From an uncultured Anaerolineales bacterium (lineage in GTDB: Bacteria; Chloroflexota; Anaerolineae; Aggregatilineales; Aggregatilineaceae): a DNA stretch of 64,000 bases. The notes under the pieces are model-generated. The model ran no database searches, was not told where the DNA came from, and was given only the letters and a program-made list of their open reading frames with translations. Below, one piece after another: positions 1,419 to 6,303 of this stretch (the first letter of the stretch is position 1; each line of letters starts with the position of its first letter). Position numbers and translations under genes: made by a program. Location of the stretch: positions 1-64,000 of the forward strand of contig CAKZOB010000061.1 in assembly GCA_937135955.1 (NCBI GenBank). The letters are read 5' to 3'.

Positions 1419-1447
1419 TTGCCGGAATGCCATCCCTGTGCTATCGT
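1419..1447 (+). promoter_or_regulatory. Candidate promoter of the arginine operon leader
   Basis: TTGCCG (1419-1424), 17 bases, TATCGT (1442-1447), each box matching four of six sigma-70 positions. The predicted start near 1454 gives a leader of about 190 bases containing the Arg-rich ORF (1487-1555) and the terminator (1597-1625). A short palindrome ATTTG-GA-CAAAT (1390-1401) lies upstream and could be a regulator site, but it is too short to be sure. Confidence 0.35.
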
Positions 1448-1486
1448 TATGCCCGTCCAAGCGATGTACCTGTGAGCGTCTGTCCC

Positions 1487-1555
1487 ATGCTTCATCTTGT
1501 TGAGATCCGTCGTCCCCGTCGCCGTCCGGCTCCCTGCCAGGGGGGTCCGGATTAG
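1487..1555 (+). CDS. Putative arginine leader peptide (attenuator peptide)
   Basis: A 22-codon ORF, ATG 1487 to TAG 1553-1555, lies in the leader of argC. Its middle reads Ile-Arg-Arg-Pro-Arg-Arg-Arg-Pro: five Arg codons (CGT CGT, CGT CGC CGT) within six consecutive codons at 1508-1525. The neighbouring operon makes arginine, so a ribosome translating this frame would sense charged Arg-tRNA. The stop codon overlaps the 5' arm of a predicted antiterminator (1554-1565), which is the expected geometry for ribosome-controlled attenuation. An in-frame GTG at 1472 would add five residues. The weak point is the lack of a strong Shine-Dalgarno sequence: only GTGAG lies upstream, at a long spacing. 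Translation is therefore inferred. Confidence 0.6.
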   Translation: MLHLVEIRRPRRRPAPCQGGPD

Positions 1556-1603
1556 CGGGGTTTGGGCCAGCGCCACGCGACGAAGCCTGCGAAACCAACC
1601 GCT
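1554..1603 (+). promoter_or_regulatory. Predicted antiterminator of the arg leader
   Basis: AGCGGGGTTTGGG (1554-1566) can pair with AAACCAACCGCT (1592-1603): AGCGG with CCGCT, then TT with AA and GG with CC, with small bulges. The 3' arm includes the first half of the terminator stem (1597-1608), so the two structures exclude each other. The 5' arm starts inside the TAG stop of the leader ORF. A ribosome that reaches the stop would mask it, while one stalled at the Arg codons about 30-45 bases upstream would leave it free. Pairing was worked out by eye, not by energy calculation. Confidence 0.5.
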
Positions 1604-1625
1604 CTCGGACCCGAGGGCGGTTTTT
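1597..1625 (+). terminator. Intrinsic terminator (attenuator) before argC
   Basis: AACCGCTCTCGG (1597-1608) pairs with CCGAGGGCGGTT (1611-1622) with one G-U pair, and five T follow from 1621. It lies after the leader ORF and only 23 bases before the argC start, so it sits inside the operon leader rather than behind a gene. It would stop transcription of argCBDAJ unless the antiterminator forms. Confidence 0.8.
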
Positions 1626-1647
1626 CGTTACCTCAGTGAGGCGAAAG

Positions 1648-2664
1648 ATGACTATTCGCGCAGGAATCTATGGAGCGACCGGTTACACCGGCCTGGAACT
1701 GGTGCGCCTGTTGGCCGGGCACCCTGCGGTGAGCATCGCCTTTGCCACATCCGAGACATCTGCCGGGCAGAGTCTGCGGCAGAGCTGGCCGCAAGCCCCC
1801 GATCTGCCCCTGGTGACGGCGGCGGACGCGCCGTTGGACGCTGTAGATGTGGTATTCCTCTGTCTGCCGCATACCCGCTCTGCCCCGCTTGCAGCGCAGG
1901 CCCTGGCGCACGGCGTGCGTGTCGTTGATCTGTCCGCTGACCTGCGCCTGAATGATCCGGCGGTCTATGCCCGCTGGTATGGCGTGACGCATCCGATGCC
2001 CGATCTGCTGCCCGTCCCTTACGGATTGCCGGAGCTAGGGCGTGAGCACCTGCGTGGCGCGCGTTGTATTGCCAACCCGGGCTGCTATGCTACTGCGGTG
2101 TTGCTGGCGCTGACTCCATTGGCGCGCGCGGGAGTGCTAGTACCGGGCGCGCCGCTTATTGTAGACGCCAAGTCGGGCGTCTCTGGCGCGGGCCGCACGC
2201 CCAAGCAGAATATCCTGTTCTGCGAGGTGCACGGCAATTTCTCACCCTACAGCATCGGGCGGGCACACCGTCACCTGGCCGAGATCGAGCAGGTGTTGGC
2301 CGCGGAGAACCCTTCTCTGGGGCCGGTGATCTTCAGTCCGCACCTGTTACCTACCGACCGGGGCATCCTGGCGACGGTGTACGCGCCGGTGACCGATATG
2401 GCGGCGGCTCAGGCTGCGCTGCGAGAGCTATATGCCGGCGAGTCGCTGGTAGAGGTGTTGCCGCCTGGCGAACTGGCAACTCTGGGGCACACCGTGCGCA
2501 CGCCGCGCGCCGTCCTCTCGCTGACGCCCGTCACCGACTCGCTGCTGATCGTGGTGTGTACGCTGGATAACCTGCTCAAGGGCGCATCGTCGCAGGCGGT
2601 GCAGAACTTTAACCTGATGTTCGACCTGCCAGAGGCGACCGGCTTGTTGTCAGCAGGGGCGTGA
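1648..2664 (+). CDS. argC: N-acetyl-gamma-glutamyl-phosphate reductase
   Basis: NADPH-dependent reduction of N-acetylglutamyl-5-phosphate to the semialdehyde, the third step of arginine synthesis. The 338-residue product has the N-terminal nucleotide motif GIYGATGYTGLELVRLL and the catalytic-cysteine segment ANPGCYATAVLLAL, with the typical KSGVSGAGR stretch after it. Length fits the family. The frame is open to a GTG at 1636. I chose ATG 1648 because GTGAGGCG lies at good spacing before it and the Rossmann fold starts at once. It is the first gene of argC-argB-argD-argA-argJ and lies directly behind the attenuator terminator. Confidence 0.95.
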   Translation: MTIRAGIYGATGYTGLELVRLLAGHPAVSIAFATSETSAGQSLRQSWPQAPDLPLVTAADAPLDAVDVVFLCLPHTRSAPLAAQALAHGVRVVDLSADLRLNDPAVYARWYGVTHPMPDLLPVPYGLPELGREHLRGARCIANPGCYATAVLLALTPLARAGVLVPGAPLIVDAKSGVSGAGRTPKQNILFCEVHGNFSPYSIGRAHRHLAEIEQVLAAENPSLGPVIFSPHLLPTDRGILATVYAPVTDMAAAQAALRELYAGESLVEVLPPGELATLGHTVRTPRAVLSLTPVTDSLLIVVCTLDNLLKGASSQAVQNFNLMFDLPEATGLLSAGA

Positions 2665-2677
2665 GGGAGGGCGAGAA

Positions 2678-3442
2678 ATGGCAAGCGCGGTTATGGCTCC
2701 TCTGCTGATCAAGGTGGGGGGCAACGATCTCGACCAGGCCGGTTTCGTCGAGGCGCTGGCCGAGGTGATTGCGCAGGTGCAGAGCCGACGGCCATGCGTG
2801 CTGGTGCACGGCGGCGGGCGCGCGATCAGCGAAATCGGGCAACTGTTTGGGTTACAGCCCAGCTATGTCAACGGACAGCGCGTGACGGACGCGGCAGCGT
2901 TGGAAGTGGCGGAGATGGTGCTCTCTGGCAAAGTCAACAAAGAACTGGTGCGCGCGCTGCTGCAACACGGCGTAGATGCGCAGGGCATGAGCGGCGTAGA
3001 TCGTGGGCTGCTGCGCGTCGAGCCATGGGCACCGGAGTTGGGGCGTGTGGGGCGAATTGTGGCCGTGCGCGCTGGCGTGTTGCTTGATCTGTGTGCCGCA
3101 GGCGTCGTGCCGGTCATTTCGCCGATTTCGCTGGGGCCGGACGGAGCCTACAACGTCAACGCCGATCACGCTGCCGGAGCCATCGCTGCCGCGATAGGGG
3201 CGGCTCAGGCCGTCTTTGTCACCAACGTTGCCGGTGTGCAGGTCAACGGAACGGTTGCGGCGCGGTTGACGGCGCAGGAAGTCAACGCGCTGATCCAGGA
3301 CGGCGTGATTACTGGCGGGATGATCCCCAAAGTGCAGGCGGCCCTGTCTGCGCTCGAAGCGGGTGTGCCCCGCGCTGTGATCACCAATCTGGCTGGACTG
3401 GCCGCAGGTGGCGGCACTGAGTTTGTAGCGCAACGCGCGTAG
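2678..3442 (+). CDS. argB: Acetylglutamate kinase
   Basis: Phosphorylates N-acetylglutamate with ATP, the second arginine step. The 254-residue product shows the amino-acid-kinase features LLIKVGGN at the N terminus, the glycine-rich VLVHGGGRAISE, the substrate loop SGKVNKELV, YNVNADHAAGAIAAAIGA, and TGGMIPKVQAAL near the C terminus. It lies 13 bases after argC and 17 before argD. It is short and lacks the N-terminal extension of arginine-inhibited hexameric kinases, which suggests (inference) a form not controlled by arginine and a larger role for transcriptional control. Confidence 0.95.
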   Translation: MASAVMAPLLIKVGGNDLDQAGFVEALAEVIAQVQSRRPCVLVHGGGRAISEIGQLFGLQPSYVNGQRVTDAAALEVAEMVLSGKVNKELVRALLQHGVDAQGMSGVDRGLLRVEPWAPELGRVGRIVAVRAGVLLDLCAAGVVPVISPISLGPDGAYNVNADHAAGAIAAAIGAAQAVFVTNVAGVQVNGTVAARLTAQEVNALIQDGVITGGMIPKVQAALSALEAGVPRAVITNLAGLAAGGGTEFVAQRA

Positions 3443-3459: not shown

Positions 3460-4647
3460 ATGGCTGAGACAATTCCCGAAAAGACGGCTCGCTACGTGCT
3501 CAACACCTATGCGCGCGCGCCGTTCGTGCTGGTGCAGGGGCAGGGGGCATTGCTGACCGATAGCGACGGCAAGACCTACCTCGACTTCGCGGCGGGTATC
3601 AGCGTCAATGCGCTGGGGCACGCCGACCAAGACCTGGTGACGGCGGTCAGCGAACAGATCGCCACGCTGGGACATGTCTGCAACCTGTTCTATTCCGCCC
3701 CGCAAGCCGAACTGGCTGAGTTACTGTGTCAGCATTCGTTCGCCGACAAGGTCTACTTCGCTAACTCCGGCGCAGAAGCGGTCGAGGCGGCGATCAAGTT
3801 CGCCCGCAAGTACGCCCGCGAGACGTACGGCCCCGGCAAAACAGGGCTGGTGGCCTTCACCGGCGCGTTTCATGGGCGCACGGCGGGGGCGCTGGCGCTC
3901 ACCGCGCGCGAGAAGTATCAGGCTCCCTTTCGACCGCTGCTGCCCGGCGTGACCTTTGCTCCGTTCAACGATCCTGCCGCTGCAGAGAAAGTCATCGGGC
4001 CGGAGACATGCGCCGTGTTTGTCGAGCCGGTGCAGGGCGAGGGAGGTATTCACCCGGCCACGCCCGCATTTCTGCAAACCCTGCGGGCACTGTGCGATCA
4101 GTATGGGGCGCTGCTCATCTTCGACGAGATTCAGTGCGGCATGGGGCGCACTGGTAAGCTCTGGGCCTATGAGCATGTCGGCGTGCAGCCGGATATGATG
4201 ACGGTGGCCAAGGCGCTGGGCGGCGGGTTGCCTATCGGCGCAACGCTGCTCACCGAGCGCGTGGCCGAGGTGATGGCCGTGGGCGATCATGGCAGCACGT
4301 TTGCCGGTGGGCCGGTCGTTTGCCGGGCGGCGCAGGTGGTCTTGAGCCGGGTCAGTCAGCCGGAGTTCCTGGCTCAGGTGACGCACAAAGGGGCGTTGCT
4401 GAAAGAGCGGTTGTGCGAACTGAACTCGCCGCACCTGGTCGAAGTGCGGGGGCTTGGCCTGATGATCGGCGTGGAGTTTGACCGGGATGTGGCACCGCTG
4501 ATCCAGGCTGGCCATGCACACGGCGTGCTGATGATCAACGCCGGGCCGCGTGTACTGCGTCTGCTGCCGCCACTGATCATCAGCGAGGCACAGATCGAGC
4601 AGTTCGTCACCATTCTGCGGCGCATCTTGCAGGAGACCTGGGCCTGA
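3460..4647 (+). CDS. argD: Acetylornithine aminotransferase
   Basis: PLP-dependent class III aminotransferase making N-acetylornithine from the semialdehyde and glutamate. The 395-residue product has YFANSGAEAVEAAIKFARKYA, GAFHGRT, the PLP-pairing FDEIQCGMGRTG and the Schiff-base lysine in MTVAKALGGGLPIGA. GGAGGAAAGAGAGGAG precedes ATG 3460. Its TGA overlaps the ATG of the next gene (ATGA at 4645-4648 region), so translational coupling with the acetyltransferase is likely. Enzymes of this family often also act in lysine synthesis as succinyl-diaminopimelate aminotransferase, which cannot be settled from the sequence. Confidence 0.95.
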   Translation: MAETIPEKTARYVLNTYARAPFVLVQGQGALLTDSDGKTYLDFAAGISVNALGHADQDLVTAVSEQIATLGHVCNLFYSAPQAELAELLCQHSFADKVYFANSGAEAVEAAIKFARKYARETYGPGKTGLVAFTGAFHGRTAGALALTAREKYQAPFRPLLPGVTFAPFNDPAAAEKVIGPETCAVFVEPVQGEGGIHPATPAFLQTLRALCDQYGALLIFDEIQCGMGRTGKLWAYEHVGVQPDMMTVAKALGGGLPIGATLLTERVAEVMAVGDHGSTFAGGPVVCRAAQVVLSRVSQPEFLAQVTHKGALLKERLCELNSPHLVEVRGLGLMIGVEFDRDVAPLIQAGHAHGVLMINAGPRVLRLLPPLIISEAQIEQFVTILRRILQETWA

Positions 4648-5115
4648 TGATCATCCGTCACCCGTACCCGCACGAGGTAGAGACCATCCGCGGCCTGTTT
4701 GCGGCAGAGGTGGCCGCCGGGCTGATGTTGCCCCGCTCTCCGGAACAGATTCTGCGACACCTGGGCGACTGGCTGGTGGCCGAAGAAGAAGGGCAGATCG
4801 TCGGCTGTGTGTCGCTGGTCTTCTTCAACGGCACGCTGGCCGAAGTGCGCTCGCTGGCGGTGCGCTCTGATCAGCGAGGGCGTGGCATTGGTAGCCGTCT
4901 GGTCGAAGCAGCAGTGCGACAGGCCCAGGAGCGCGGCGTCCGGCGGGTGCTCGCCCTCACCCGCGCGGCGGGCCTGTTCGAACGGCTGGGATTTGTGCGC
5001 GATGCGGTGGGCAACTTCCCGGAGAAAGTCTGGCGCGATTGTGCGCCGTGCCCCTTCCGCCATCGCTGCGACGAGATCGCCTTGGTGTTGGAGCTGATGC
5101 CAGGAGAGACCGATC

Positions 5116-6303
<1,188 letters not shown>

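Follow-up and report, generated by a model that had tools for sequence, protein, structure and literature searches.

The element described here occupies positions 1419-1647 of a 64,000-nucleotide stretch of DNA (contig CAKZOB010000061.1 from an uncultured Anaerolineales bacterium), the whole of which we refer to as the window. It fills the gap between hom, which ends at 1359, and argC, whose ATG is at 1648. From 5' to 3', the parts are a candidate promoter, a short ORF rich in Arg codons, a 1:2 hairpin, an antiterminator and an intrinsic terminator, the last two having bases in common (Table 1). The original prediction had placed the element before an arginine-making operon in a probable member of the Chloroflexota. 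Indeed, the gene order argC-argB-argD-GNAT-argJ, supported by NCBIfam and Pfam matches, is that of an arginine operon, and the phylum is right, as contigs of the relatives match named Chloroflexota/Anaerolineae MAGs. The GNAT acetyltransferase is possibly a stand-alone ArgA-like N-acetylglutamate synthase. As listed, its ORF and that of argJ overlap by 62 nt (5116-5177), and the real start of argJ may lie farther downstream. A second ArgC-like protein (40% identity) is encoded elsewhere in the same genome (L007; G000:C55:102386-103411, minus strand).

Table 1. Features of the hom-argC gap and of the operon that follows, in window coordinates.
Feature	Position	Strand	Basis
Candidate promoter: -35 TTGCCG, 17 nt spacer, extended -10 TGC-TATCGT (TGCTATCGT)	1419..1447	+	8/12 consensus positions
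Putative leader peptide ORF, 22 codons: MLHLVEIRRPRRRPAPCQGGPD, then stop	1487..1555	+	Direct reading; relatives have a short Arg-rich ORF there too
Predicted sensing codons CGT CGT CCC CGT CGC CGT (5 Arg in 6)	1508..1525	+	Arg cluster kept in relatives
Strand 1, 5' arm of the pause/protector hairpin, from the last Arg codon onward	1524..1535	+	Folding
Strand 2, 3' arm of the pause hairpin; 1543-1550 also begins the antiterminator 5' arm	1540..1552	+	Folding, relatives
Antiterminator 5' arm, overlapping the leader ORF end and stop codon	1543..1567	+	Fold with bases to 1537 masked; conserved core
Antiterminator 3' arm (strand 3); 1597-1612 common to the terminator	1585..1612	+	Folds; pairing in relatives
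Intrinsic terminator, stem 1597-1607 with 1612-1622, then U-tract	1597..1625	+	Pattern scan, folds, covariation
argC, N-acetyl-gamma-glutamyl-phosphate reductase, first structural gene	1648..2664	+	NCBIfam TIGR01850 above cut-off; Pfam semialdehyde dehydrogenase domains
argB, acetylglutamate kinase	2678..3442	+	TIGR00761 above cut-off
argD, acetylornithine transaminase	3460..4647	+	TIGR00707 above cut-off
GNAT acetyltransferase	4647..5177	+	Pfam PF00583; best NCBIfam match just under its cut-off
argJ, glutamate N-acetyltransferase, start codon uncertain	5116..6303	+	TIGR00120, PF01960

The promoter lies where the original prediction had put it, the refinement being its extended -10 and its score against the consensus (Table 1); transcription is predicted to start at about 1453-1455. 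A consensus scan did not pick up 1419-1447, and we grade TTGCCG-N17-TATCGT as a weak promoter candidate. A comparable promoter is present 5' of the leader in every family member examined, and most leaders of the order and class are preceded by one of the form TTGACA-N17-TAnnnT. Recomputing the leader ORF gave the same coordinates as before, for both the frame and its Arg cluster, with Arg codons at 1508, 1511, 1517, 1520 and 1523; translation could also begin in frame from a GTG at 1472. The stop codon (1553-1555) is 92 nt from argC. When 1360-1635 was shuffled with dinucleotides preserved, 1.7% of the shuffles gave five Arg in six codons of an open frame.

The Shine-Dalgarno sequence of this leader is weak, as is common among such leaders, and this had been the main doubt about the ORF. 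Frame and promoter are both conserved, and the leader is predicted to be translated. The start codon lies 39-68 nt past the -10 box in the window's family. Among 25 leaders examined from the class and phylum, 13 have it no more than 10 nt past the -10, so that about half are probably leaderless. Start codons at 6-10 nt were seen in L052, L055, L063, L128, L129, L130, L131, L144 and L145, among others. Such apparently leaderless starts in relatives lessen the doubt over the weak Shine-Dalgarno, without proving that the leader is translated.

Folding confirmed the pause hairpin suggested at 1526-1550, which extends to 1524-1552 when folded (1524-1535 with 1540-1552; -19.8 kcal/mol). We then masked bases to 1537, which mimics a ribosome whose A site holds the last Arg codon (1523), its leading edge being assumed to lie about 14 nt ahead. 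A transcript reaching 1612 now folded into an antiterminator of -33.5 kcal/mol, before the 3' arm of the terminator exists, with the pairings 1543-1550/1605-1612, 1554-1558/1599-1603, 1559-1563/1592-1596 and 1564-1567/1585-1588. As had been claimed, the stop codon is overlapped by its 5' arm; the 3' arm takes in the 5' arm of the terminator. The latter, which ends in a TTTCGTT tail and was also recovered by a pattern scan, formed when the mask was extended to 1566 (ribosome at the stop codon). With no mask (no ribosome), the 1:2 hairpin and the terminator formed together. Antiterminator and terminator thus appear as alternative states, depending on which 5' bases are masked. If the ribosome stalls as early as the first Arg codon (1508), strand 1 stays free and termination is the state favoured at equilibrium; release of the operon should therefore require a stall at the distal Arg codons. 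Compared with shuffles, the fold of the whole 194 nt leader has only a moderate advantage (z -1.9), and the window's own 2:3 duplex stands out from them by only z -1.4, because the sequence is GC-rich; the strength comes from the relatives. Taken alone the window is suggestive, and comparison with relatives decides.

For this comparison, we located argC at the level of family, order, class and phylum, and compiled 177 upstream regions, which were oriented before analysis. Of the 18 family genomes, 13 had one strong match to a covariance model of the leader ahead of argC; in the remaining five, the assembly contained no close argC, or just its 3' part. The element is thus present in 13/13 family genomes in which the 5' region of argC is assembled. 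Of 114 non-redundant argC upstream regions with a detected terminator, 90 contained an ORF that had at least four Arg in eight codons and ended shortly before the terminator (family 10/10, order 53/56, class 21/39, outside the class 6/9). Shuffles reached four Arg in eight codons in 11-13% of cases, and any amino acid other than Arg did so in at most 11 of the 114 leaders. Two further Chloroflexota families outside the class have the element. Eighteen of the 39 sampled class leaders fell under four Arg in eight codons, many of them with two or three, and several members of the order lacked such a leader directly before argC. In some cases (L036, L038, L081, L086, L102, L125, L126, L141) the finder missed the terminator or the limit on ORF length hid the leader, so the counts are conservative. 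Under one and the same test, leader plus terminator was found in 25 of 32 argC loci from named Chloroflexota and in none of 48 from other phyla.

The original prediction had held that the leader peptide would be a chance ORF if relatives kept the terminator without the Arg-rich frame. They keep the two together, in every family genome with an assembled 5' region and in nearly all of the order, and a chance ORF is ruled out by the relatives, the shuffles and the control with other phyla. The Arg cluster itself occurs in 57 different peptide versions among 88 leaders, which vary in length and at both their N- and C-termini, and it is encoded by CGT, CGC, CGA, CGG, AGG and AGA. Leaders L064 and L177, for example, have RSPRSPRR at the same place, encoded largely with AGG. 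Since Arg identity is kept while the codons change, selection seemingly acts on Arg codons and not on one nucleotide repeat.

The model R1, run on the family genomes, matched the argC leader only, and hisG leaders weakly, ruling out other arginine genes under this leader; the remaining weak matches that we inspected resemble ordinary terminators. No relative was found in the viral contigs searched. A MAG record titled Pleurocapsa minor, a cyanobacterium (JAHHHY010000001.1, L205), contains a Chloroflexota-type argC with an Arg leader; the record name is probably wrong.

The pairing strands change between families and do so together. Strands 2 and 3 read GGGTCCGG/CGGACCC in the window's family and GAGGTTCG/CGAACCTC, TGAGGTCA/TGACCTCA or GGTCTGG/CCAGACC in others. 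The 2:3 duplex was matched by at most one of 60 shuffles in 52 of 88 sequences, and was within the top 5% of shuffles in 67 of them. Furthermore, each genome's own strand 3 paired far better than partners swapped in from other genomes (double-centred z -13.4, n 84). In an alignment of the 15 nearest relatives (A1), 98.3% of cells in the terminator are paired and five pairs have changed on both sides, with 0 of 500 shuffles as good. The 6 bp core of the antiterminator is paired in 98.9% of cells across 15 relatives, with one double change from G-C to A-U. Its covariation in A1 is weak (41 to 46 of 500 shuffles were as high) because the core hardly varies, and the deeper own-versus-swapped test replaced the A1 shuffle test for this structure. 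For the 1:2 hairpin conservation is lower, with 78% of cells paired. Aligning the relatives, as had been proposed, therefore yielded conserved Arg codons, a covarying terminator and, by the own-versus-swapped test, antiterminator strands 2 and 3 that co-evolve; antiterminator and terminator are mutually exclusive.

We also looked for other regulators of arginine genes. ArgR (PF02863) was found in none of the 18 family genomes, the search being positive in 8 of 14 control genomes. Across a 400-genome sample of the phylum it was present in 97 genomes, none of them in the window's class (positive families f66, f69, f76, f77, f79, f81, f89, f91, f101 and f103). From f69, f79 and f81 one argC upstream region each was examined, and none contained such a leader. 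The restriction of ArgR to genomes outside the class, together with these few argC regions without a leader, suggests that one system replaced the other. A search of the window with Rfam at gathering level gave no match at the site, T-box, his, leu, thr, trp and speF families included, and relaxing the threshold to E up to 5 in 1380-1700 returned just a chance match to RNAI. Eight T-box matches lie elsewhere in the same genome (L306-L313), four of them above the Rfam cut-off, so T-boxes and leader-peptide attenuators coexist there.

The arginine-leader model brought a second leader to light in this genome, before hisG (L292; G000:C33:40390-40540, minus strand). It encodes a His-rich peptide, MLTNTLHVHAHPHHHNRPSARRSGSVVLRV, has its own terminator and occurs in relatives as well (L293, L287, L301). 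Its ATG lies about 7 nt past a TATATT -10, and it is probably leaderless. The match of one model to both suggests that the two leaders may share a scaffold, and a His leader before hisG makes it probable that leader-peptide attenuation is a working mode in this lineage.

These results suggest a model whereby the element acts, very probably, as a ribosome-mediated transcription attenuator: it would gauge charged tRNA-Arg and thereby control the argCBD(GNAT)J operon. Transcription would start near 1454 and a ribosome would begin the 22-codon leader. With Arg-tRNA scarce, the ribosome is predicted to halt at the later Arg codons (1517-1525) and cover strand 1, leaving strand 2 free. Strand 2 and the bases past the stop codon could then pair with the 5' arm of the terminator (1543-1567 with 1585-1612), such that no terminator would form and argC onward would be transcribed. 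With Arg-tRNA plentiful, the ribosome would reach the stop codon at 1553 and cover strand 2, allowing the terminator (1597-1622 and the U-tract) to form. If the leader were not translated, the 1:2 hairpin would form and termination would again be the default. Translation of the leader, ribosome stalling at its Arg codons and a dependence of readthrough on arginine are all predictions of this model.

An Arg-rich peptide might instead act at the ribosome exit tunnel, where free arginine would arrest the nascent chain in the style of the fungal arginine attenuator peptide or TnaC, with no role for codon starvation. The leader peptide is certainly short and Arg-rich, and in several members a hydrophobic stretch precedes the Arg cluster. 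However, arrest peptides normally keep specific residues, whereas the cluster here varies as described above, and no conserved peptide sequence beyond the sensing residue was found among the 88 leaders. Moreover, if excess arginine caused arrest at these codons, strand 2 would become available and the operon would be switched on, the opposite of what suits a biosynthetic operon. We therefore consider peptide arrest improbable.

Codon-based attenuation also has to be weighed against the idea that a GC-rich RNA or DNA element, such as a protein-binding site, merely happens to create the Arg-rich frame, with terminator and antiterminator alone functional and another factor in control. The CGTCGCCG repeats are of low complexity and CGN-rich frames arise easily in GC-rich DNA, as the shuffles that gave four Arg in eight codons illustrate. 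Nevertheless, the enrichment is specific to Arg and sits in an open frame ending just before the terminator, the AGG codons of L064 and L177 keep Arg and not the nucleotide repeat, the strand geometry suits a ribosome and a parallel His leader precedes hisG. An artefact of GC repeats is ruled out by the Arg-specific enrichment and the AGG codons, and we regard control by another factor as very improbable. Least probable of all is that translation of the leader chiefly boosts argC expression, through reinitiation or protection from Rho, with the hairpin acting as a constitutive partial terminator. Such roles have been proposed for many leader genes (PMC4833913), but here a strong intrinsic terminator lies in the 92 nt between the stop codon and argC, and a constitutive terminator would have no need of co-evolving alternative pairings.

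Leader-peptide attenuation is a textbook mechanism, but the control of arginine biosynthesis has been assigned to ArgR and the T-box. An arginine attenuator that is conserved over a class and reaches further families of the phylum, and that occurs where ArgR is lacking, suggests that sensing by codons can take the place of a classical repressor, and it would extend the range of attenuation to the Chloroflexota. No Rfam family covers the argC leader, which makes it a ready target for annotation, and the apparently leaderless forms offer an unusual test of ribosome-polymerase coupling at a leader peptide. More tentatively, arginine attenuation may be ancestral in a large part of the Chloroflexota, in place of ArgR, and may form with the his leader one exchangeable scaffold in which only the sensing codons have been swapped, often on leaderless mRNAs; we hold this broader idea to be possible, though somewhat doubtful.

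The element resembles the classical attenuators (trp, his, leu, thr, ilv, phe) in all its parts: a promoter, a short ORF with clustered codons for the end product, a 1:2 pause hairpin, a 2:3 antiterminator, a 3:4 intrinsic terminator and a biosynthetic operon downstream. It is unlike them in the amino acid that it is predicted to sense, in its Chloroflexota host and in the many class members that are apparently leaderless. An actinobacterial survey described trp, leu, ilv and cys attenuators (PMC1262725). A survey from 2010 stated that leader-peptide systems were known only in Proteobacteria and Actinobacteria, and then added the Firmicutes (PMC2965389), and one from 2013 named ilv and phe attenuators in addition to the motifs present in Rfam, namely his, leu, thr and trp (PMC3766115). 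In the open-access papers we came across neither an arginine attenuator ahead of argC nor one in Chloroflexota, although an earlier prediction elsewhere is possible. The nearest arginine case is the speF leader of Salmonella, where consecutive Arg codons in an upstream ORF (orf34) sense arginine by ribosome pausing (PMC6386406). It shares with the argC leader the Arg codons in an upstream ORF and the sensing of arginine (predicted for argC), but its target is a polyamine gene, regulated by way of Rho, mRNA decay and translation, and its two Arg codons lie in a conserved peptide. Nor does it use an intrinsic terminator to attenuate an operon for arginine biosynthesis, as the argC element is predicted to do. 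The fungal arginine attenuator peptide likewise exerts arginine-specific control via an upstream ORF, as predicted for argC; it is a eukaryotic case of nascent-peptide arrest on a conserved peptide, without a transcription terminator. The ArgR repressor and the T-box, which control arginine genes elsewhere, perform the same physiological task; ArgR is absent from the family and there is no T-box at the site. As judged from the open-access literature, then, the argC leader is very probably a case of ribosome-mediated attenuation of the classical kind, new in the amino acid that it would sense and in its phylum.
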